This document shows, piece by piece, positions 42,988-54,699 of a stretch of 64,000 bases of DNA. The stretch lies in contig NZ_PYWM01000026.1 of assembly GCF_003049665.1 (NCBI RefSeq), positions 1 through 64,000 on the forward strand, given 5' to 3'. Below the pieces are notes generated by a model. The model was not told the origin of the DNA. It was given only the letters and a program-made list of their open reading frames with translations, and did no database searches. The translations under genes and the position numbers were made by a program. This DNA comes from Lysinibacillus mangiferihumi. GTDB lineage: Bacteria; Bacillota; Bacilli; Bacillales_A; Planococcaceae. The first letter of the stretch is position 1. Each line of letters opens with the position of its first letter.

Positions 42988-44094
42988 ATGAAAAAAACAC
43001 GTATTTTTGGATTTTTGCTTGTGTTGATGCTGATCGTTGTAGCTGCTTGTAGTAGCACTGACGATAAGGGTTCGACAAAAGATGCTGAAAAAAGCGACAC
43101 GGCATCTAATGCTGAAAAAGCCGATGGAAACACATCTCCGTCAGGTAAGCTGGTCATTTACACAGGGCGTGATGAAGAAATGGTGCAAGGCGTAATCGAT
43201 CAGTTTAATGAGAAGTACCCTGACATTCAAGTGGAGTTTTTAACAATGGGGGCTCAACAAATATTAGAGCGTCTACGCGGTGAAAAAGCGAATCCTCAAG
43301 CAGATTTTTGGTGGGGTGGTACTCAATCCGCCTTAATGGTTGGAGCAAACGAGGATTTACTCCATGCATGGCAACCGAGCTTTATCGACACAATAGATGC
43401 AAACTATAAAGATACAGAAGGTCGCTGGTTCGGTGAAATGCTATTACCTGAAGTCATTATGATTAATAGTGACTTACTAACAAAAGAAACCGGTCCACAA
43501 GATTGGGATGATTTATTAGATCCGAAATGGCAGGACCAAATTTTAATTCGTGGTGTATTAGCGTCAGGAACTATGCGCACGATTTATTCATCCATGATTG
43601 TTCGTCAAGGTGCCGACACACCTGACAAAGGTTACGAATGGCTATTAAAATTAGATGCGAACACAAAAGAATATACGCAAGATCCTAATGCACTTTATTT
43701 AAAGCTTACACGTCAAGAAGGCAGTGTTTCATTATGGAATTTACAAGATATCCTATTGAAAAAGTATACAACAGATTATCCGTTTGATTACATTTATCCA
43801 AAGAGTGGTGCACCAATTTTAGTGGATGGTGTTGCGGTTGTTAACAAGGCAAAAAATTTAGAGAACGCAAAATTATTCGTTGAATTTTTATTTGAAAAAG
43901 ACATGGTTACGAAATTAGCGAACGACTATTACCAAATTCCAACACGCTCCGACATTGATCAAGCGACAATGCCAGAATGGTATCAGGAATTAGATTTAAA
44001 AACGTTTGATATTGATTGGCAATTAATGTCGGAAAAAGAGGCAGAATGGATGGAACACTGGGATACAAATATAAAAGGTAGAGGGAAGAAATAG
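42988..44094 (+). CDS. ABC importer binding lipoprotein, Fe/2-AEP/sugar-phosphate class
   Basis: A 368-residue family 1-type solute-binding protein. The lipobox is VAAC near residue 20. IYTGRDEEMVQGVIDQFNEKYPDI near residue 55 and AGADFWWGGTQ-like residues near 110 match the FbpA/AfuA/PhnS group, which binds ferric ions, hexose phosphates or aminoethylphosphonate. No obvious ferric Tyr-Tyr pair was seen. It is followed by a terminator, so it is its own unit, while the cognate permease and ATPase lie 2-5 kb downstream in a second unit. Confidence 0.87.
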   Translation: MKKTRIFGFLLVLMLIVVAACSSTDDKGSTKDAEKSDTASNAEKADGNTSPSGKLVIYTGRDEEMVQGVIDQFNEKYPDIQVEFLTMGAQQILERLRGEKANPQADFWWGGTQSALMVGANEDLLHAWQPSFIDTIDANYKDTEGRWFGEMLLPEVIMINSDLLTKETGPQDWDDLLDPKWQDQILIRGVLASGTMRTIYSSMIVRQGADTPDKGYEWLLKLDANTKEYTQDPNALYLKLTRQEGSVSLWNLQDILLKKYTTDYPFDYIYPKSGAPILVDGVAVVNKAKNLENAKLFVEFLFEKDMVTKLANDYYQIPTRSDIDQATMPEWYQELDLKTFDIDWQLMSEKEAEWMEHWDTNIKGRGKK

Positions 44095-44120
44095 AGCAAC
44101 TCAGAAAACGCGTGCTGATT

Positions 44121-44156
44121 AAAGGTATCAAGAAGCCCCTCTTGATGCCTTTTATT
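44121..44156 (+). terminator. Terminator after the binding-lipoprotein gene
   Basis: AAAGGTATCAAGA pairs with TCTTGATGCCTTT with one wobble pair around a 6-nt loop, followed by TATT. Confidence 0.85.
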
Positions 44157-44267
44157 AAAATTTAAGTACCTAATATAATAACCTGTAAAGACACATAAAA
44201 ATCTTTGCATCCCACACATAATGAAACATAAGGTTACAATACTAGCATTGTCAAATTTTATACTAAT

Positions 44268-44296
44268 TTGTTTTTTCAGATTATTCAATTTATAAT
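44268..44296 (+). promoter_or_regulatory. Consensus-like promoter of the exporter operon
   Basis: TTGTTT at 44268-44273, exactly 17 nt, then TATAAT at 44291-44296. It lies just ahead of the short leader ORF. Confidence 0.75.
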
Positions 44297-44327
44297 TATT
44301 ATACTTAAAATCGAAGGAGGATTACTT

Positions 44328-44384
44328 ATGGTACTAAATAAAAGTATTTTTAAAGGAATCGCTTTTCTGTCATTCGGATTTTAA
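44328..44384 (+). CDS. 18-residue leader or signal peptide ORF
   Basis: A strong ribosome site, AAGGAGG at 44314-44320, lies 7 nt before the ATG. The peptide is MVLNKSIFKGIAFLSFGF. It is hydrophobic with two lysines. It lies 32 bp after a consensus-like promoter and about 120 bp before the ABC exporter start. Two mutually exclusive hairpins follow. Two explanations are possible: a leader peptide that controls downstream read-through by ribosome stalling, or a small exported peptide handled by the exporter. A real translated ORF seems likely because the ribosome site is the best in this part of the window. Confidence 0.6.
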   Translation: MVLNKSIFKGIAFLSFGF

Positions 44385-44397
44385 TTTCTATCCCTAA

Positions 44398-44475
44398 AAT
44401 TTGCGATTTTATCAGTTAATTAAACAATTCCGCGTGACAGGCTAACGCAAATTGTATTTGGAATATAAATACAAT
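44398..44475 (+). promoter_or_regulatory. Alternative hairpins between leader ORF and exporter gene
   Basis: AATTTGCG at 44398-44405 pairs with CGCAAATT at 44446-44453. ATTGTATTT at 44451-44459 pairs with AAATACAAT at 44467-44475. The two helices share 44451-44453, so they compete, which is the layout of an attenuator or translational switch. Neither has a terminator-like T run, so control at the level of translation or message stability is as likely. Confidence 0.5.
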
Positions 44476-44502
44476 ATATACTGTATAATTAGGTGAAGAA
44501 TC

Positions 44503-46293
44503 ATGAATACAATCTACTCTTATGTCAAACTTACCTTAAAAACCTTCCCTCTTTTTTGGGGGGCTTCCAAGTTTTATTCTATTATTTTGTTCGTTATTAT
44601 TCCCTTTCAAGCAATACTACCATCTCTAACTCTATGGTTTTCGAAAGGATTAATCGATGCTATTTCTACTACCGACACCATCGTTTATTCTATCATTATT
44701 TTCTTTGTACTAGCCTGGATAGTTGTATCATTTTTGAATGCCATATTAGGACCATTAGAAATGACTTTTCAAGGTTTAATGACGGATAAATTAATTGCCC
44801 AATTAAATAAAAGCTTGATGGATAAATCCTCAGAAATCAAAGGATTATACTACTTCGAAAATCCGGAATTTTATGACGATATCCAAGTGCTTGAGCAAGA
44901 GGCTGCATGGCGACCAGTAAACCTTATTGTTTTTACGTCAGGCATGATTAGTAGTGCTCTAACAGGCATTTCGATGCTGGTGTTATTGACGAACTTTAAT
45001 ATTTGGATTGCATGCATTATTTTTGTTGCGATCGTTCCGCAGGCTATCGTTACCTATCGATTACAGAAGGAAGCATTTGAAACACTTGTCACGAATAGTC
45101 CGGAAGCAAGGAAGATGCAATATTATAGCTCTGTCATGCTGTCAAAAGAACATATTAAAGAAGTGAAATTGTATAACACAGCTACCTTCTTCATTAATAA
45201 ATACATGATGACATTTAATAAAATTCATACTGATATTAAAAAAATTAGATATAAACAAGCTTGCTACTCCATCGTCTTTGTTGGAATTGGCATGGTTGGC
45301 ATTGGCTTCAGTTTTTGGTGGGTGGTCAATGGTGTACTGAATAATACATTTACTGCAGGAGATATATTAATTTTCGCTTCATCTATTTTACTTGCCCGTC
45401 AAAGTTTGGCGAGTTTTATCGAAAATTCAAGCTTGCTCTATGACACGCTACTTTATATGGAAAAATACTTTAAATTTATTTCTTTAAAATCAGATATTAC
45501 ATCAGGTGAGAAAATATTGTCGCTAGAAAAAAATGAATTTACGATTCGATTTAACAATGTATCCTTTCAATACCCTAATTCCTCAAAACTGATACTCGAC
45601 AATATCAGTTTTACAATCAACATGGGCGAAAAGATTGCACTTGTCGGCGAAAATGGTGCTGGGAAATCGACTATCGTTAAGCTGATTACAAGATTATATG
45701 AACCAACCGAAGGAATCATCGAATTAAACGGCATTGATATTACCGAATATGAAATCGACGCATACCGCAAAATTATTGGTATAGTGTTCCAAGACTTTTC
45801 GCGTTACCAGTTAACTTATAAAGAAAATATTTTGATTAGTAACACAGAAAATACTAATGATGATGGAATGTTAGCAATTGTTACCGAAAAAAGCGGTCTT
45901 GAGGAGTTGGTTGGAAGTTTTGAGCATGGCTACGAGCAAGTTTTAAGTAAAAACTTTGATAATGGAACAGAACTTTCAGGTGGTGAATGGCAAAAAGTGG
46001 CGATTGCCAGAGCTTACTTCCGCAATGCGGCATTTCTTATTTTAGATGAACCGTCTGCATCTCTTGACGCAAGAAGTGAGCATCAAATGCTTGAAACCTT
46101 AACAGACCTTTCAGCAACGAAAACATTACTATTAATAACACATAAATTATCTGCTTTAAATATGGTGGATCGTATCATTGTATTACAAGACGGACATATA
46201 GCAGAGGAAGGTTCGATGCAAGAACTGTTGACCAGCAAAGGCTATTTTGCGGAATTGTATCAACTACAGGCTAATAAGTATGTCAATTGGTGA
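44503..46293 (+). CDS. ABC exporter, fused membrane and ATPase domains
   Basis: A 596-residue half-transporter: six helices in residues 20-320 and an ATPase domain from about 345. Walker A is GENGAGKSTIVKL, the signature is LSGGEWQKVAIARAYF, and Walker B is FLILDEPSASLDARSE. The signature with EWQ is typical of exporters of small peptides and peptide-like products (lantibiotic and cyanobactin clusters). No peptidase domain is present. GTGAAG precedes the ATG. It is 45 bp from the next gene, so it is in one operon with the importer ATPase, permease, lyase and kinase. Confidence 0.88.
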   Translation: MNTIYSYVKLTLKTFPLFWGASKFYSIILFVIIPFQAILPSLTLWFSKGLIDAISTTDTIVYSIIIFFVLAWIVVSFLNAILGPLEMTFQGLMTDKLIAQLNKSLMDKSSEIKGLYYFENPEFYDDIQVLEQEAAWRPVNLIVFTSGMISSALTGISMLVLLTNFNIWIACIIFVAIVPQAIVTYRLQKEAFETLVTNSPEARKMQYYSSVMLSKEHIKEVKLYNTATFFINKYMMTFNKIHTDIKKIRYKQACYSIVFVGIGMVGIGFSFWWVVNGVLNNTFTAGDILIFASSILLARQSLASFIENSSLLYDTLLYMEKYFKFISLKSDITSGEKILSLEKNEFTIRFNNVSFQYPNSSKLILDNISFTINMGEKIALVGENGAGKSTIVKLITRLYEPTEGIIELNGIDITEYEIDAYRKIIGIVFQDFSRYQLTYKENILISNTENTNDDGMLAIVTEKSGLEELVGSFEHGYEQVLSKNFDNGTELSGGEWQKVAIARAYFRNAAFLILDEPSASLDARSEHQMLETLTDLSATKTLLLITHKLSALNMVDRIIVLQDGHIAEEGSMQELLTSKGYFAELYQLQANKYVNW

Positions 46294-46338
46294 AATCAAT
46301 GCATAACTGTCTTTTCAAAATAGAAAGGAGCATTGCAT

Positions 46339-47409
46339 TTGAAAAATGTCAAAATCGAAAATGTCTCTAAGCAATTTGGGAAAGTGCAAGGTGTAAAAGA
46401 TTTAAATCTCGAAATCAAAACGGGTGAATTCTTTACCTTCCTTGGGCCTAGTGGCTGTGGGAAAACGACGACATTGCGAATGATTGCAGGGTTTTATTAT
46501 CCTACTGAAGGAAAAATTTTTTTCGATGATCGCGATGTGACATTACTTCAGCCAAATAAACGCAATATTGGTATGGTGTTTCAAAATTATGCGCTGTTTC
46601 CACACATGACAGTAGACGAAAATATTGCTTTTGGCTTACAAGTACGAAAGCTCTCTAAACAGGAAATAACACAAAAAGTTGACCGCATTCGAGGACTTGT
46701 ACATTTAGGGCAATATGGCAGCAGGAAAATTAATGAATTATCTGGTGGTCAGCAGCAGCGTGTTGCCCTAGCAAGAGCACTTGTGATTGAGCCTGATATT
46801 TTATTACTCGATGAACCGTTGTCGAATTTAGATGCAAAGTTACGTGAGGAAACGCGCATTGAAATTAAAAGAATTCAATCCGAGCTAGGTGTTACAACCA
46901 TTTATGTAACACACGATCAAACGGAAGCGATGTCCATGTCGGACCGCATTATGGTGATGGACAATGGTTATGTAAAACAAATCGGCACACCTCAAGAAAT
47001 TTATAATCGGCCAGTAAACCGCTTCGTTGCCGATTTCATCGGGGAAACCAATTTAATCGAAGCGACAATCTTTGCGATTAACGCAGATGAAGTGCAAGTA
47101 AAAACAAAGAATGGACTTGTTCTAACTGGGCGAAAGCAACACAGCTCCCCTACTTTAACGCATATGATTGGAGACAACGTGTTTATTTCGATTCGTCCAG
47201 AGTCTGTCAATCTAGGCCCTGGAGAAAATACATTAACTGGAACAATCACATTTGTTGAATTTACAGGAATAAGTGTAAATTACATTGTCGATTTTATTGA
47301 ATTCTCATTGAAAGTTATGATAATCAATAAAAATGCACAGCTAAAAAACATTGGCGAAAGCATTACTTTAAATATAGCGCAGGAATCACTATATTTTTTA
47401 GGAGAATAG
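46339..47409 (+). CDS. ABC importer ATPase, Fe/2-AEP/sugar-phosphate class
   Basis: A 356-residue ATPase of the spermidine/iron/2-AEP class. Walker A is GPSGCGKTTTLRM, the signature is LSGGQQQRVALARALVI, and Walker B is LLLDEPLSNLDAKLR. A TOBE domain fills residues 240-356. A TTG at 46339 is preferred as start because AAAGGAG lies 8 nt upstream; a TTG six bases earlier is too close. It energises the double permease that follows, with the lipoprotein at 42988. Confidence 0.92.
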   Translation: MKNVKIENVSKQFGKVQGVKDLNLEIKTGEFFTFLGPSGCGKTTTLRMIAGFYYPTEGKIFFDDRDVTLLQPNKRNIGMVFQNYALFPHMTVDENIAFGLQVRKLSKQEITQKVDRIRGLVHLGQYGSRKINELSGGQQQRVALARALVIEPDILLLDEPLSNLDAKLREETRIEIKRIQSELGVTTIYVTHDQTEAMSMSDRIMVMDNGYVKQIGTPQEIYNRPVNRFVADFIGETNLIEATIFAINADEVQVKTKNGLVLTGRKQHSSPTLTHMIGDNVFISIRPESVNLGPGENTLTGTITFVEFTGISVNYIVDFIEFSLKVMIINKNAQLKNIGESITLNIAQESLYFLGE

Positions 47410-47421
47410 GAGGCAGACCAC

Positions 47422-49143
47422 ATGGAAAAACCACCTGTACATTCTTATCAAAATAATGCTTGGACACGGCTAACGCAATCTAAATGGTTTGTCTATATTT
47501 TAATTTCACCTTTGTTTTTAGTATTGTTTGCTTATGTCATTTATCCTTTCTATCAAACTTTTCTTCAAAGTTTTTCAGGAGAGCGCGCACTTAGTCATTA
47601 TCAAAAGTTTTTTAGCCTTACTAGCCCTGCTAATCTTGAGGCGCTATGGACTAGTTTATATATATCCATTATTAGCGTGATTTGCTGTGCACTTGTTGGT
47701 GTAACAATGGCATTTTTATTGGAACGCTATGAGTTTCCAGGAAGACGCATATTATCTATTTTAGTATTAGTGCCAATGGCTCTTCCACCGCTTGTTGGCG
47801 TACTCTCTTTTACATTCCTATACGGGGAGAGTGGCATTTTTCCACGCGCAATTCAGCATTTATTCGGCTTAAAGCAAGTACCCTTTTCTTTAAAAGGTAT
47901 ATGGGGTGTCATCGTTGTCCATACATTTACCATGTACACCTACTTCTATTTAACCGCTTCAGCTGCTATTAAAGGACTCGATCCATCATTAGAGGAAGCA
48001 GCAACTAGTTTAGGTGCAGGGCGTATTCGTGTATGGACAAAGGTTATTTTACCGATGTTGACACCTTCTATTATTGCATCTGCCTTGCTCGTCTTTATGG
48101 TATCAATGGCATCCTATACGGCACCATTAATGTTTGGTGTCGAACGAACGATGACCATGCAAATTTACTTATCACGGACAAATGGTAATTTAGAAATGGC
48201 CGCTACACAGTCAATGATTTTATCGTTTGTATCCATTTCATTTTTGATTGTTATGCGCTGGTACCAAAACCGTAGAAATTACCAAAATTTGAGTAAAGGC
48301 ATTAGTGTTCATCGCTCAGAAGTATCTTCAAAATTCATGAAAATAATTGCTACAATAGCTTCTTTTGGCGGAACACTGATTTTAATTTTACCAATTTTAG
48401 TGCTGATTTTAATTTCCTTTTCAGTCGATGGCGCATGGAAAACACAAATACTTCCCACCGACTACACCGTCGATCATTATGTGGCACTCTTTACTGATGA
48501 ACGAACGTGGAGACCTATTTGGAACTCCATCCAAATGGGTATTGTCGCAACGTTTGGTAATGTACTTTTTGGTGTCGCTGCAGCCTACGCGATGGTGCGT
48601 CTCAACTTTAAAGGGAAAACATTGCTCGATATTTTAATTATGGTTCCTTGGGCACTGCCTGGGACTGTTGTTGCCGTCAATTTAATTGCTGCCTTTAGCA
48701 CTGAAAATATTTTTGCCTTTAACCATGTGCTGATTGGTACGTTTTGGATTTTACCGCTTGCTTATTTTATTAGACATTTACCACTTGTTTTCCGTTCAAC
48801 ATCAGCCTCTCTTGTGCAATTAGATCAGTCGATTGAGGAGGCGTCACGCAGCTTAGGTGCAAATTGGTGGTATACGTTTCGACGTATCGTCCTGCCGCTA
48901 ACTTTTTCGGGCATATTAGCAGGAACATTACTAGCGCTTGTCCAAAGTTTAGGTGAATTCGTAGCTTCTATTCTTATTTATAGCACTTCTACGATTCCGC
49001 TATCTGTCGCTATATTTCAAAAATTATATGCCTTTAAATTTGGAACTGCTTGTGCCTATGGTGTTTTACAAATTTGCTTAATTTTAACAGTACTTATTAT
49101 TTCGGAAAAGCTATCAAAGGGCAGTGCTGGCTCAGCCATATAA
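47422..49143 (+). CDS. ABC importer double permease, FbpB-like
   Basis: A 573-residue protein with two fused permease halves of six helices each. Each half carries an EAA loop: GLDPSLEEAATSLGAGRIRVW near residue 190 and QSIEEASRSLGANWWYTFRR near residue 480. This fused form is usual for ferric-ion and related transporters. AGGAGG lies 8-9 nt before the ATG. Confidence 0.92.
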   Translation: MEKPPVHSYQNNAWTRLTQSKWFVYILISPLFLVLFAYVIYPFYQTFLQSFSGERALSHYQKFFSLTSPANLEALWTSLYISIISVICCALVGVTMAFLLERYEFPGRRILSILVLVPMALPPLVGVLSFTFLYGESGIFPRAIQHLFGLKQVPFSLKGIWGVIVVHTFTMYTYFYLTASAAIKGLDPSLEEAATSLGAGRIRVWTKVILPMLTPSIIASALLVFMVSMASYTAPLMFGVERTMTMQIYLSRTNGNLEMAATQSMILSFVSISFLIVMRWYQNRRNYQNLSKGISVHRSEVSSKFMKIIATIASFGGTLILILPILVLILISFSVDGAWKTQILPTDYTVDHYVALFTDERTWRPIWNSIQMGIVATFGNVLFGVAAAYAMVRLNFKGKTLLDILIMVPWALPGTVVAVNLIAAFSTENIFAFNHVLIGTFWILPLAYFIRHLPLVFRSTSASLVQLDQSIEEASRSLGANWWYTFRRIVLPLTFSGILAGTLLALVQSLGEFVASILIYSTSTIPLSVAIFQKLYAFKFGTACAYGVLQICLILTVLIISEKLSKGSAGSAI

Positions 49144-49171
49144 CTGTTATTCTATTAGGAGGCCATTAATT

Positions 49172-50686
49172 ATGTTTGAAGATTTCCGCAACAAAATTCA
49201 GCAAGAGGATGGAATAATTTTTCCTTCGAATATTTACCGGAAAATTGTATTGCAACCGGCTTATGATGAAGCAAAGAAAAATTTTTTAACGATTATGCTT
49301 CAAATTAATATTGCCCATTTAAAAATGCTAGAAGAACAAGGACTTGTAAAAAAAGAAGAAGCGAAACAAATTGCTTTGGCACTGAAAAAACTAGATTTGA
49401 ACTATTATCGAATAGAAGATTACAGCCCGCAATACGAGGATTTATTTTTCCGCATTGAAAATAAATTAATTGAACTTGCTGGTGATGTTGCCGGAAATCT
49501 TCATATCGGTAGAAGTCGGAATGATATGGGGATTGCCATTTATCGCATGACATTGCGCAAAAAATTATTAATGCTTATGGGGGAATTGCTTAAATTACGC
49601 GGTGATTTAATTGCAGCTGCCGAGGAGCATATTGATACGATCATGATTGGCTATACACATACGCAACAAGCTCAACCGACCACTTTTGCCCATTATTTAA
49701 AAGCTGTTATCGATCAGCTAGATCGTGATTTTGAGCGCATGCAGCATTGCTATAAAACGATAAATCGGAGCAGTATGGGGGCAGCCGCCTTAACGACAAC
49801 TGGCTTTAACATTAGTCGTGAGCGTATGCGAGACTTATTAGCTTTTGACGATATTATTGAAAATGCATGGGATGCGGTTGCTGGAGCTGATTATATTGCT
49901 GAAACAGCAAGTATTGTGCAGCTTGCGGCACTGAACCTCGGCCGTACATCACAGGACTTTTTACTATGGGCTACGCAGGAATTCAACGCCTTTACACTCG
50001 CGAGTCCATACGTTCAAATTAGCTCTATTATGCCTCAAAAGCGAAACCCTGTGTCCATTGAGCATACGCGCTCATTATTATCTGCGGTTGTTGGAGATGC
50101 AAGTACAGTGCTACAAATGGTACATAATACACCGTTTGGTGATATTGTTGATACAGAGGACGATATGCAACCGTATTTATGGCGAGCGATGGATCGATTA
50201 ATAGGTATATATAAATTATTTGGTTCGCTTGTTGTCACAATGGATGTCAATAAGAAAAAGCTTCGAAACCGTGCAGAAAATAGCTTTGCCAATGTAACAG
50301 AACTTGCTGATACTTTAGTGCGTTCGGAAGGGATTTCATTCCGCCAAGCCCATAGTATCGTAAGTAAATGTATTAAAGTATTACTTGCTCACGGCGAAGA
50401 ATCACTGGCAAGTCTTACGTGGGGATTAGCCAATACACAAGCCAAATTGGTGACTGGCAAACCGTTAGTTATTTCTGAAGAAGATTTCTACCATACTTTA
50501 AAACCCGAGTTCTTCGTAAATGTCCGAACATTACTAGGCGGTCCTTCCCCTGAAACGATGCGGGCTTCTATTGAACGTTCGAAGGAACAAGCCAATACCT
50601 TACTTGAGTGGATTCAACTGAAAGAATCAGCTATTATAGAGGCGGAAAAGCAATTAATTTTGTTTATAGAGGAATGGGATCAATGA
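49172..50686 (+). CDS. Argininosuccinate lyase-like enzyme, divergent
   Basis: A 504-residue member of the fumarase/aspartase superfamily. The fumarate-binding region HIGRSRNDMG, GYTHTQQAQPTTFAHYL and the signature loop SSIMPQKRNPVSIEHTRSL are all visible. It lacks an arginine-pathway setting and differs from ordinary ArgH at several of these motifs (HIGRS for HTGRS, QKRNP for QKKNP). The family also contains lyases of aminopolycarboxylates such as EDDS lyase. It probably forms or breaks a C-N bond to a fumarate-derived succinyl group. The ATG at 49172 has AGGAGG 9 nt upstream. Confidence 0.85.
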   Translation: MFEDFRNKIQQEDGIIFPSNIYRKIVLQPAYDEAKKNFLTIMLQINIAHLKMLEEQGLVKKEEAKQIALALKKLDLNYYRIEDYSPQYEDLFFRIENKLIELAGDVAGNLHIGRSRNDMGIAIYRMTLRKKLLMLMGELLKLRGDLIAAAEEHIDTIMIGYTHTQQAQPTTFAHYLKAVIDQLDRDFERMQHCYKTINRSSMGAAALTTTGFNISRERMRDLLAFDDIIENAWDAVAGADYIAETASIVQLAALNLGRTSQDFLLWATQEFNAFTLASPYVQISSIMPQKRNPVSIEHTRSLLSAVVGDASTVLQMVHNTPFGDIVDTEDDMQPYLWRAMDRLIGIYKLFGSLVVTMDVNKKKLRNRAENSFANVTELADTLVRSEGISFRQAHSIVSKCIKVLLAHGEESLASLTWGLANTQAKLVTGKPLVISEEDFYHTLKPEFFVNVRTLLGGPSPETMRASIERSKEQANTLLEWIQLKESAIIEAEKQLILFIEEWDQ

Positions 50687-51630
50687 ATGAATGGCTACTA
50701 ATAATAGACGGTGGTGCAACTAAAACGGCATGTGCTATCGTACATGCCGAGTCAGGTGAAATTCAATATACAACAACAATGGGAGGATCCAATTATCAGG
50801 CGATTGGCATAGCGTCTGCAACAGAAATACTACGAGCGTTATTAAGCAAAGCTCGTGTATTTTTGCAGGACCAAGCTATCTCTAAAATCGCCGTCGCCAC
50901 GTTTGCTATGGCTGGAATTGATTCTCCAAAGGATTATCAAAATGTGACCGCAATGGTTCATGAAGCAATTACAGCGGAACAGCTAGACATCCATACGTTA
51001 ATCGTGGAAAATGATGCACAAGCTACTTTATTAGGTGTCACTGCTGGACAAGCAGGTGCGCTACTAATCGCAGGCACAGGGGCTATTGCCTATGCATTCG
51101 ATGGGCAACAAATTGCCCGCACTGGTGGTTGGGGCCATCGTGCGGGCGATGAAGGAAGTGGCTATTGGCTTGGGCAGGAAGTCATACGTGCCATTTTCCG
51201 GATGGAAGATGGTCGAGGGGAAGCGACGCTATTAAAAGATGCTGTTTATAACTATTTACGTATTCAGGATGTCACCGAGCTCGCAGCATGGTTATTCCGC
51301 CCTTCTTATACAAATGCACAATTAGCCAAAATGGGGGCATTTTTGGCCGATGCCGTTGCCAAAAAAGATACATGTGCTATTCAAATATCCACTCAGGCAG
51401 CCCATGAATTAGTGCTCCTTGCTTGTGCGGTACTTAAAAAAATCAGTTATCAAGGCGAACCATTTAACTTTTATTGTAATGGGGGTGCTATAAAACATAA
51501 CCCTCTGATTTTAAAAATATTTTCACAAGAAATGACTTCAATGTATCCCAAAATTAATGTTTCCTTATGTCAACATCAGCCAATATCTTATATTATCAAT
51601 CGTTCAAAAAGGGCGTATGACAATTTGTAA
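50683..51630 (+). CDS. BadF/BcrA-type ATPase, N-acetylglucosamine kinase-like
   Basis: A 315-residue sugar kinase-fold protein. The phosphate motif is IDGGATKTACAI at residues 7-18, then GGSNYQAIG, VENDAQATLLG near residue 100, and LLIAGTGAIAYAF, followed by WGHRAGDEGSGYWLG. These fit N-acetylglucosamine/N-acetylmuramate-type kinases. The start overlaps the lyase stop (ATGA), so translation is coupled. The last 25 residues do not match the expected PVYGA-type end, so the C-terminus may be altered. It is the last gene of the operon. Confidence 0.86.
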   Translation: MNEWLLIIDGGATKTACAIVHAESGEIQYTTTMGGSNYQAIGIASATEILRALLSKARVFLQDQAISKIAVATFAMAGIDSPKDYQNVTAMVHEAITAEQLDIHTLIVENDAQATLLGVTAGQAGALLIAGTGAIAYAFDGQQIARTGGWGHRAGDEGSGYWLGQEVIRAIFRMEDGRGEATLLKDAVYNYLRIQDVTELAAWLFRPSYTNAQLAKMGAFLADAVAKKDTCAIQISTQAAHELVLLACAVLKKISYQGEPFNFYCNGGAIKHNPLILKIFSQEMTSMYPKINVSLCQHQPISYIINRSKRAYDNL

Positions 51631-51658: not shown

Positions 51659-51982
51659 AGGCTGGGACATAACTAAAAAAATTTAAGAAACAGACGAAAG
51701 GTGTTCATAATTTTTTGCTATATGGAGCTTAGCAAACTTAGCTATTCTTGCATTTGCATTAAATAAAAAATTAGAAGTGTTCACTAGTTGTTGGTAGCGG
51801 AGGCGGTGACTCCTGCGGGAACAGCACATAATGTAAGACGCAACAGACCGCGCGTTAGCGAGGGTTGCGGCTTACGTGTGTGCCCGCGGAAAGCACCGCC
51901 ATAGCGGACAACAACGGCATAGCAAAAAAGTGTTAGATTGACTGCCATCAATCTAACACTTTTTCTCTTTTGTCCCAGCCTC
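51659..51982 (-). repeat. Dispersed 315-bp element with terminal inverted repeats, copy 2
   Basis: The reverse complement of the element at 9560-9873, similar over its full length. Ends are AGGCTGGGACATAAC on the left and TTTTGTCCCAGCCTC on the right. The terminator-like hairpin (AAAAAGTGTTAGATTGA and its partner) lies at about 51927-51966. A second partial end (TCTCTTTTATCCCAGTCTC) follows directly, as if the end had been duplicated. It fills the gap between the kinase and the transglutaminase genes; the remainder of 51983-52110 is plain. Confidence 0.88.
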
Positions 51983-52110: not shown

Positions 52111-53403
52111 TTATAGTTGCATTTTCTTTAGTTCATTCGTCATGAAATATAAATAACCGTCCTTAATAAATAAATCTTTCGTGTCTTCCTTATTCAGCAG
52201 TTGTTCGCCGCTTCCATCGGGGCGAATTTTCGTTAAATAAGCACCATGTGAATAATTACTAAAGTATAGCCATCCATCTGCATAAACGATATATTGTGCA
52301 CGCGTTTTCGTGACACGCTGTGCTTTGCCGGTAGTCATATCAAGCACATATAATCTATTGTCATCAGAAATACTGCTATAGAATAGTTGATTTCCTACCT
52401 GTGCAGGAAAATCAATATCCTGATAATAGCTATAAGCGGTACTTGTTGCTTTCGGATAATCGTCCGCTATCCATGTGTGATCACGTGCCATCGTGCGATC
52501 ATCCACTAAAAAGTATTGATATCTTATAGCCCCTTTACGATCAGGCACCGGATCATTCCACGTTGTATCAAGATGATACCATTGACCGTCGAGTTTTACT
52601 AAATTCCAAGCATGGCCTTCTTGACCGACATAACCCACAATATATTTTGTCTCGAAACCAAGTTTTTGCAACATTGAGTGTGCTAATAACGCATAGCCCT
52701 GACAAACACCACCATGCTCGGCCAGCACCGTATAGGCACTATGTGGGCTTGACTTTGTTTGCTCAGTATAAGCTGTATTGGCTACTATATAATCATTTAC
52801 TGCTTTAATCTTTTCTACATCGGTTTTCGCGTTTTTTGCAATCGTAGCAACGATTTCTTGCGCATTCATCTCTACATAAGCCGCTTGCTCCGGTGTCATT
52901 AAATAGCTTTGTTCTCCAAAAATCTTAGCTGTTTTTTTACCATATTCAAAGCGTATGGAATGCTTACTAATATGACCATAGACATAATCGTCTCGTTTAA
53001 TGGCACTATCATAAGCCTCCTCCACAATTTTCTCGATTCGTTGCGTACTTCCTTTATATTGAATTTCAAAGCTAGGCGAAAAACTACTATAGTAGGCGTA
53101 CATTGCATCCGCCATTTCCTTCGCATTAGTGACAACAAGCTTTGTTTCAGGCTGCTTTACAACTGGAGCAGTGACCGCTAGCTCTTGGTTCTTTACATCT
53201 TCAGGGTTGGCTGTTTGAATTGAGGCATCTTCTGAAAATTTGGTGGTAACATCAACAATTTTTTCTTTTGTTGCTAGTAGCATCGTTTCGATGTCATCAT
53301 TATTTGCCCAAGTTACGACTTGCTTAACTGTCGCTTTACCCGCTGTATAGATTGGTTCCATAAAAACAATAAATATTACTATAATCGCTAGCTTCTTCCA
53401 CAA
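52111..53403 (-). CDS. Exported transglutaminase-fold protein with DUF5050-like propeller
   Basis: A 430-residue protein. An N-terminal hydrophobic helix (residues 4-20) anchors or secretes it. A transglutaminase/protease-like domain has the catalytic cysteine in GVCQGYALLAHSML near residue 225, the histidine in GHAWNLV, and the aspartate in HLDTTWNDP. The C-terminal 130 residues have repeats like YIVYADGWLYFSNY, a DUF5050/beta-propeller type. Start is TTG with GAGGTGA upstream. It probably crosslinks or hydrolyses wall or surface proteins. A close paralogue is the next gene. Confidence 0.85.
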   Translation of the reverse strand: MWKKLAIIVIFIVFMEPIYTAGKATVKQVVTWANNDDIETMLLATKEKIVDVTTKFSEDASIQTANPEDVKNQELAVTAPVVKQPETKLVVTNAKEMADAMYAYYSSFSPSFEIQYKGSTQRIEKIVEEAYDSAIKRDDYVYGHISKHSIRFEYGKKTAKIFGEQSYLMTPEQAAYVEMNAQEIVATIAKNAKTDVEKIKAVNDYIVANTAYTEQTKSSPHSAYTVLAEHGGVCQGYALLAHSMLQKLGFETKYIVGYVGQEGHAWNLVKLDGQWYHLDTTWNDPVPDRKGAIRYQYFLVDDRTMARDHTWIADDYPKATSTAYSYYQDIDFPAQVGNQLFYSSISDDNRLYVLDMTTGKAQRVTKTRAQYIVYADGWLYFSNYSHGAYLTKIRPDGSGEQLLNKEDTKDLFIKDGYLYFMTNELKKMQL

Positions 53404-53444
53404 AAATCTTCACCTCACACAGTTTCACTACTTTCATTATATAC

Positions 53445-53485
53445 AAAAAAAGCACAAAGAACTCATTTAAGAGTCCTTTTGTGCT
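53445..53485 (-). terminator. Terminator of the second transglutaminase gene
   Basis: AGCACAAAAGGACTC pairs with GAGTTCTTTGTGCT on the minus strand with minor mismatch, and TTTTTTGTATAT follows. It separates the two paralogues, so each is its own unit. Confidence 0.85.
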
Positions 53486-53547
53486 ATAAATAAGATATGC
53501 ATACAACAGGTAATCTAGAAACGTCCTGTTGTTTCGTCCACTGCATA

Positions 53548-54699
53548 TTAGTTAATTTTTTGCTTTTGTTCTTTACCGTTAACTTTATACACTAAATAAC
53601 CGCTACTAATCATTAAATCAGTTACAGATTGTTTCACTACTACATTTGTTTTTAATGTTTTAAGATTTAGTTTTGTTAAGTAGCCGCTATTACTATAATC
53701 GCTATAATAAAGATAATCGCCAGCGCCTGTAATATACAGAGCACGAGTATCAATCACCTTCGTTTTCTTACCACTTACCAAGTCAAGTTTATACAACTTA
53801 TCATTATCCGCTGTATTGCTGAAGTATAAAGTATTTTGGATTTGGTGTGCAAAATGTACATTTTGCATGAAATTATAGGAAGTACTTGTGGCCGCAGGAT
53901 AATCTGTAGTAATCCAAGTATGGTCTTTGTTTAGCTGCGCATCCGTTACAAGGAAGTAATCATAGGAAGATGCCCCAATTCGATTTGGTAACGGATCATT
54001 CCATGTTGTATCTAGATGATACCACTTGCCATCAAGCTTCACCATATTCCAGGCATGTGCTTCAGTGCCATTCACATAACCTACTACATATTTTGTTTCA
54101 ATCCCTGCTTGCTCTAGCATTTTATAAGCTGATAACGCATAGCCCTGACATACAGCTTGTCCTTCGAATAGTAAAGCGTAAGCGCTATGTGGACTTGCTT
54201 TCGTTTTTGTACCATAAGTAGTATTTGACACAATATAATCATTAATAGCCTTTACTTTTTGAAACGGTGTCATAGAAGGCTTAATAATCGTCTTTAAAAT
54301 GCTATCAATCTTCTTTTGTACAGCAGCTTCTTGTGTGGCATTTGTAAAGTATTTTACTTTATAGGTTACATTCCCTGCGGAGTCAGCAGACATTGAAATG
54401 CTTTGAAGATGACCACTAGCATACGTAGCTTGTTGCTGCGCCTTTTCAAATGCCTCCATAAACTTGTCCATATCCGTCATTGAACCACTATATGTAACTT
54501 TTATTTCAGTCGCAAAATTATTAAGTTGCTTTGCTATTTCTTTTGTTAATTGATCAACAGTTGCTATCTTCGTACTAGCCATCGCATTGTATACAATCGG
54601 TGCAGGAGTATTGAATGGTTGAGTCTGTGCACTTTGTGCATTGGCTACAGTTGGGCTTAACATCAACAATGTGGCACTGCTTAATAACCATTTTTTCAA
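53548..54699 (-). CDS. Exported transglutaminase-fold protein, paralogue
   Basis: A 383-residue protein with a cleavable signal peptide ending near ANAQS (residues 18-22). The catalytic cysteine is in AVCQGYALSAY, histidine in EAHAWNMV, aspartate in HLDTTWNDP. The C-terminal 100 residues again form propeller-like repeats. Compared with the neighbour it lacks the longer linker after the membrane segment. Tandem duplication followed by divergence is the simplest history. Confidence 0.87.
   Translation of the reverse strand: MKKWLLSSATLLMLSPTVANAQSAQTQPFNTPAPIVYNAMASTKIATVDQLTKEIAKQLNNFATEIKVTYSGSMTDMDKFMEAFEKAQQQATYASGHLQSISMSADSAGNVTYKVKYFTNATQEAAVQKKIDSILKTIIKPSMTPFQKVKAINDYIVSNTTYGTKTKASPHSAYALLFEGQAVCQGYALSAYKMLEQAGIETKYVVGYVNGTEAHAWNMVKLDGKWYHLDTTWNDPLPNRIGASSYDYFLVTDAQLNKDHTWITTDYPAATSTSYNFMQNVHFAHQIQNTLYFSNTADNDKLYKLDLVSGKKTKVIDTRALYITGAGDYLYYSDYSNSGYLTKLNLKTLKTNVVVKQSVTDLMISSGYLVYKVNGKEQKQKIN

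Follow-up and report, generated by a model that had tools for sequence, protein, structure and literature searches.

The window analysed here, 64,000 nucleotides of Lysinibacillus mangiferihumi (contig NZ_PYWM01000026.1, positions 1 to 64,000), carries a locus of six genes on the forward strand with an ATP-binding cassette (ABC) importer, an ABC exporter, a lyase of the argininosuccinate lyase (ASL, ArgH) superfamily and a kinase. The source genome comprises 5.3 Mb in 138 contigs, and the closest relatives of the lyase were found in Lysinibacillus. A preliminary description, made without database searches, had named the six genes; all identities and positions were found again. No structured RNA was detected in the window with Rfam at the gathering threshold.

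The binding lipoprotein of the importer is encoded at 42988..44094. Pfam and NCBIfam profiles and matches to solved structures characterise it as similar to P5PA, AfuA and PhnS2, and in relatives its gene adjoins that of the ATPase. The importer ATPase (46333..47409, TTG start) has PhnT2 as best NCBIfam match, below the cut-off, and the double permease (47422..49143) was recognised with Pfam and NCBIfam; gene neighbourhoods were used for both. The ArgH-like lyase (49172..50686; Lyase_1 and ASL_C2) starts with ATG behind AGGAGG. Profiles, tree and active-site signature place it in a separate clade, and it is proposed to release fumarate from a malyl glucosaminide. For the BadF/NAGK-type kinase (50683..51630), a proposed glucosamine kinase assigned by profiles, alignment with MurK revealed intact conserved motifs. 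The exporter (44503..46293), MsbA-like in profile matches, lies between the genes of binding protein and ATPase. According to the coordinates, the distances are 39 bp from exporter to ATPase, 12 bp from ATPase to permease and 28 bp from permease to lyase; lyase and kinase genes overlap by 4 bp.

Conserved operon and exporter

A scan of contigs for relatives of the lyase confirmed 203 loci; the best 80, all from Bacillales, were taken, and 79 of them could be scored. Companion genes were counted among the 8 genes upstream and 4 downstream of the lyase; the exporter was looked for among 9 upstream and 6 downstream. It was the best match of no gene in any of the 79 neighbourhoods. The Lysinibacillus loci with importer show the order binding protein, ATPase, permease, lyase, kinase, and the exporter is absent. 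The binding protein stands directly before the ATPase in 17/17 of them (L006-L021 and L025 in our numbering of loci), with a gap of 7-292 bp, below 130 bp in 16. The conserved operon of Lysinibacillus consists of binding protein, ATPase, permease, ArgH-like lyase and NAGK-like kinase, and the conservation of these genes, the exporter set aside, is far above chance. The preliminary description had drawn one unit from 44268 to 51630, with the exporter inside and the binding protein in a unit of its own; both counts contradict this division.

At E 1e-100 the exporter was detected in 5/32 Lysinibacillus genomes, with copies 84-94% identical to one another. In all five carriers, the window and four others, it separates the genes of binding protein and ATPase. 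It has the appearance of one clade-specific insertion without functional link to the pathway, and gives no evidence for a cycle of export and import. The preliminary description had also raised the question whether the lyase or the exporter accompanies the importer in this strain only. For the lyase this co-occurrence is widespread; for the exporter it is nearly unique, considering the five genus genomes and the 79 loci mentioned above. Ahead of the exporter, an open reading frame of 18 codons (44328-44384) was considered as a peptide belonging to it. One relative has an identical copy, in a second the frame is shifted, and in two more it was not seen; the idea was rejected.

Some features of the surroundings were recorded in addition. 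The reverse strand downstream of the operon (52111-54699) encodes two paralogues in tandem, in which a transglutaminase-like motif was noticed by eye, and two genes of cluster c5 follow the operon in most Lysinibacillus loci. A GC-rich intergenic element at 51790-51925 has at least 41 matches in the source genome (40 of 112 candidates scored). A similar stretch was found in the gap between binding protein and exporter of locus L138 and, partly, of L139.

A separate clade of ArgH-like lyases

In a tree of 51 proteins (midpoint root, long outside branches), 47 sequences of the family cluster together with a support of 100/98. Outside of this group are the ArgH-like protein of the source genome, EDDS lyase and the proteins of L121 and L133. 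Arg116, Asn117, Thr162, Ser284, Lys290, Asn292 and Glu297, which we take to be the positions of the fumarate site and of catalysis, are kept in the lyase of the window. The leaving-group region differs, with Val294, His298 and Asp324 where ArgH has Asp, Leu and Tyr. All three residues are present in 80/80 Bacillales loci, in 14/16 loci of a phylum sample and in 17/18 plasmid loci. Exceptions are L111, inside the clade but with Ser at position 294, and L121 from the phylum sample, as well as L133 from a plasmid. The lyase and its relatives form a supported clade, distinct from both ArgH and EDDS lyase, and have an active-site signature of their own. The invariant aspartate of the pocket could hold the ammonium group of a sugar.

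The protein bears the name argininosuccinate lyase in RefSeq, because it reaches 354.6 bits with the argH model TIGR00838 (cut-off 279.5); with the XcbC model, 233.8 bits remained below the cut-off. On this score, a true second argininosuccinate lyase might be assumed. This is very improbable, since the usual ArgH motifs are found in a different protein of the source genome (L004), whose Asp, Leu and Tyr are the residues replaced here, since the lyase stands outside the branch of ArgH and EDDS lyase, and since it is located in clusters of amino-sugar genes as described below. Clade members on plasmids (e.g. L127, L129, L143) are named argH, too, because their scores are near or above the cut-off of TIGR00838. 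A systematic misannotation is likely.

Among 200 sampled genomes of the window's order, 68 contain a lyase with at least 775 bits. A weaker paralogue of the ArgH superfamily (517-534 bits with the family profile) was noted in 13 of the 200.

Conserved neighbours of the lyase

Within the 79 Bacillales loci, the kinase was found in 69, permease and ATPase in 54 each and the binding protein in 52. Furthermore, a long PIG-L hydrolase (33), a NagC-like ROK repressor (30), a creatininase-family hydrolase (26) and a second, short PIG-L protein (10) recur. The permease was not seen near the lyase in 25 loci; 20 of them, from Ureibacillus, Solibacillus and some Lysinibacillus, have a gene of EamA type immediately upstream of the lyase. 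Such lyase-kinase pairs may serve an internal substrate, or the importer may be encoded elsewhere. Related DMT/EamA transporters, 42-71% identical, adjoin the PIG-L gene in L127, L128 and L144; the EamA gene upstream of the window operon gave no blastp match to those of L127 and L128.

In the phylum sample, 17/398 genomes match the lyase at E <=1e-120, the window's own included. Besides the window, 16 loci were examined, and 15 fall in the clade. An importer is present in all 15 (of CUT1 sugar type in 11), a ROK regulator in 13, a long PIG-L in eight, an amidohydrolase-2 protein in four, a creatininase in two and NagB in two (L107, L113; that of L107 above the curated cut-off). The kinase was found in four with a limited reference set. 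In L106, L111, L112 and L113, where no long PIG-L was found, the amidohydrolase-2 protein (tested with Pfam for L113) stands beside the lyase. Among plasmids, 132 records match the lyase; 18 regions were examined and 17 belong to the clade. These contain an importer (17), a ROK regulator (13), a long PIG-L (10, three of them recognised with Pfam) and a short PIG-L (4, all Deinococcus). In 13 of the 17, a sugar kinase or second ROK-family protein follows the lyase; ten of these genes are annotated as PfkB, ribokinase, carbohydrate or sugar kinase and three as ROK family protein (the L129 copy was tested). nagB is annotated in two plasmid clade loci (L129, L143) and a SIS-domain protein in one (L141). 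For L130, L132, L134 and L147, lyase and importer are present, and neither a ROK regulator nor a kinase is annotated. NagA was identified in none of the loci examined. The cluster occurs in Bacillota, Deinococcota and Alphaproteobacteria, with a kinase of BadF, PfkB or ROK type.

The link to PIG-L is tight. In the phylum sample a long PIG-L occurs in 8/398 genomes, all within the 17 lyase-positive ones (hypergeometric 1.7e-12, a value that is too small because the genomes are related). Plasmids gave 21 records with long PIG-L, and 20/20 listed also carry the lyase, 4.4-4.7 kb away. The short PIG-L proteins match BshB2 best in Paenibacillus, and MshB, then Mca, then BshB2 in Deinococcus deserti, all below curated cut-offs; the same holds for the ROK regulator and its best match NagC. 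By eye, the N-terminus of PIG-L is signal-like in Gram-positive loci and not in four alphaproteobacterial ones.

The importer of the window was compared with characterised systems. The best solved match of the binding protein is the pyridoxal phosphate (PLP)-binding P5PA (6wce), followed by 8x1a and 4r72, both with Fe(III)-type names given by the depositors; 4r72 is presumably the sugar-phosphate binder AfuA. These two names, and the exporter adjacent to the importer genes within its clade, would suit a cycle that exports a metallophore or succinyl conjugate and imports it again, which the preliminary description had favoured. However, the alignment shows Gln-Asp in place of the Tyr-Tyr pair of the iron protein 2pt1, which we assume to be iron-binding, so that the mark of a ferric importer of FbpABC type is missing. 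The exporter is missing from the relatives as well, and the companions are amino-sugar genes. On these three grounds an iron or metallophore cycle was rejected, and we give it hardly any chance. Uptake of the phosphonate 2-aminoethylphosphonate (AEP) was rejected, too, as the scores with PhnS2, PhnT2 and PhnU2 (125.9, 377.6 and 168.8 bits) are all below the cut-offs (392.75, 457.7 and 593.25). The kinase resembles kinases of N-acetylglucosamine (GlcNAc) and N-acetylmuramic acid, with MurK and NagK as best matches. It passes Pfam BcrAD_BadFG and reaches 91.3 bits with NagK (cut-off 370).

Proposed pathway and comparison with known systems

Lyases of the fumarase superfamily mostly release fumarate. 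Hence, a succinyl or malyl unit is expected in the substrate. NagB in the clusters implies glucosamine-6-phosphate, and PIG-L, lyase, kinase and NagB together point to an N-acyl-glucosamine plus a C4 acid. To our knowledge, bacillithiol (Cys-GlcN-malate; GlcN, glucosamine) is the only natural compound of this combination that can be named. With a probability of about 0.5, the locus is a catabolic operon for an N-acyl-glucosamine conjugate that bears a malyl (C4-dicarboxylate) group, with bacillithiol or its GlcN-malate or GlcNAc-malate core as the most likely candidate; about the same applies to GlcN-malate or bacillithiol as the substrate suggested by gene content. A pathway of this class, which breaks down an amino-sugar conjugate by means of a fumarate-type lyase, is quite probable, as alternatives of the same class add to it.

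According to the protein families, a PIG-L amidase would strip the N-acyl or cysteinyl group and the ABC importer would take up the conjugate. The lyase would eliminate fumarate from the putative malyl group and free glucosamine, presumably by C-O elimination as in fumarase, with the sugar as leaving group. Precedents for C-O elimination are fumarase and XcbC of coenzyme M synthesis. The families further suggest that the kinase would form glucosamine-6-phosphate and NagB would yield fructose-6-phosphate and ammonia, while fumarate would enter the tricarboxylic acid cycle. The preliminary description had mentioned, as an alternative, a sugar-amine conjugate that is imported, cleaved by the lyase and phosphorylated. 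This comes close to the reading supported best: the logic of uptake, lyase and kinase was retained, and the favoured bond is now C-O. nagB and bshC are present in the source genome, nagB away from the locus.

According to a review (PMC4101496), all PIG-L/LmbE enzymes identified up to its date act on a core of N-acetyl- or N-acyl-glucosamine. It also states that Bca clips bacillithiol conjugates and that the resulting GlcN-malate is "presumably" recycled (see also PMC4360819). Among the matches listed, no description of such a pathway was found in the open-licence PMC literature.

Several observations weigh against bacillithiol or GlcN-malate catabolism. The window locus contains no PIG-L, creatininase or ROK gene. 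The source genome encodes one PIG-L protein, away from the locus. A long PIG-L was not found in it at 1e-60; its best match to the ROK repressor is no close homologue, with 31% identity and the N-terminal part missing. Thus, this single PIG-L or ready-made GlcN-malate would have to serve in the first step. Permease and kinase are missing near the lyase in 25/79 and 10/79 Bacillales loci, NagB occurs in few clusters, and the amidase slot is filled variably by PIG-L, creatininase or amidohydrolase-2. A gene annotated as cysteine dioxygenase family next to PIG-L in L144 counts as no more than a hint of cysteine release; it comes from a single locus, with no Pfam match at 1e-5. Bacillithiol producers are not enriched: in the phylum sample bshC occurs in 5/17 lyase genomes and 72/381 others (p 0.34), although only a pathway for thiol made by the same cell would predict such an association. 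All 38 tested Bacillales lyase genomes have bshC, but so do 14/16 sampled genomes of that class. In the 12/17 lyase genomes that lack bshC, the compound would have to be of outside origin or a different one.

The latter would be an environmental N-acyl amino-sugar conjugate with a C4 acid, as yet unnamed and unrelated to bacillithiol. We consider it unlikely, though the absence of bshC and the differing amidases and importer types of the clusters fit it. Non-producers could feed on the thiol of producers, and no other natural compound of such make-up is known to us.

A further objection to C-O elimination is that the closest solved lyase, EDDS lyase, is a C-N lyase. Its nearest relatives of solved structure, EDDS lyase and ArgH, most commonly cleave C-N bonds. 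With the same pathway logic, the substrate might be glucosamine N-linked to succinate (either the Heyns product formed from fructose and aspartate or a different N-aspartyl amino sugar), cut by the lyase to fumarate and glucosamine. ROK, kinase and NagB fit this equally well. Yet the PIG-L hydrolases, which need N-acyl-glucosamine, would be left without a role. Six residues of EDDS lyase are near the substrate (Arg112, Asn113, Gln159, Asn288, Asp290, Tyr320), as described in PMC12363623. Only three of these are kept in the window lyase, which has Val294 at the position of Asp290, Ile325 at that of Tyr320 and His163 at that of Gln159. We regard C-N cleavage as rather improbable.

Returning to the malyl conjugate, it may tentatively be proposed that one bacillithiol-scavenging pathway is common to Bacillota, Deinococcota and Alphaproteobacteria, in which a new enzyme of the ASL superfamily cleaves a glycosidic C-O bond by beta-elimination of fumarate, not by hydrolysis; we put this at somewhat below even odds. 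If true, the fate of the GlcN-malate half of bacillithiol would be explained, and producers would gain a route for its turnover. Redox thiols would be nutrients shared between bacteria, with non-producers feeding on the thiol of their neighbours. Bacillithiol itself is predicted to be very widespread (PMC6282198). A lyase family named argininosuccinate lyase in public records of several phyla would obtain a function. Whatever the substrate, a clear target for assays is offered by the close association of the lyase with PIG-L, ROK repressor and sugar kinase.

In comparison with known systems, the window lyase has the fold family and the fumarate-site residues in common with EDDS lyase (Chelativorans, PDB 6g3d) and argininosuccinate lyase. 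It differs as a separate clade with Val294, His298 and Asp324 instead of Asp, Arg and Gln (EDDS lyase) or Asp, Leu and Tyr (ArgH). Binding protein, ATPase and permease are of the same classes as in the AEP importer PhnS2-T2-U2 and in importers of the P5PA/AfuA class. In contrast to PhnS2-T2-U2, the window proteins score below all three cut-offs, and in 11/15 clade loci of the phylum sample the importer is of CUT1 sugar type instead. The kinase shares fold and conserved motifs with MurK (8zo3) and NagK, but is below the NagK cut-off, and PfkB- or ROK-type kinases replace it in other clusters. The bacillithiol deacetylases or amidases BshB1 and BshB2/Bca and, for mycothiol, the enzymes MshB and Mca are the best matches of the short PIG-L proteins of Paenibacillus and Deinococcus; the cluster proteins are below their curated cut-offs, and none is encoded at the window locus. 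Like the nag operons for the use of GlcNAc and glucosamine, the clusters contain a NagC-like ROK repressor, a sugar kinase and sometimes NagB. In contrast to these operons, they add a lyase of the fumarase superfamily and PIG-L hydrolases.

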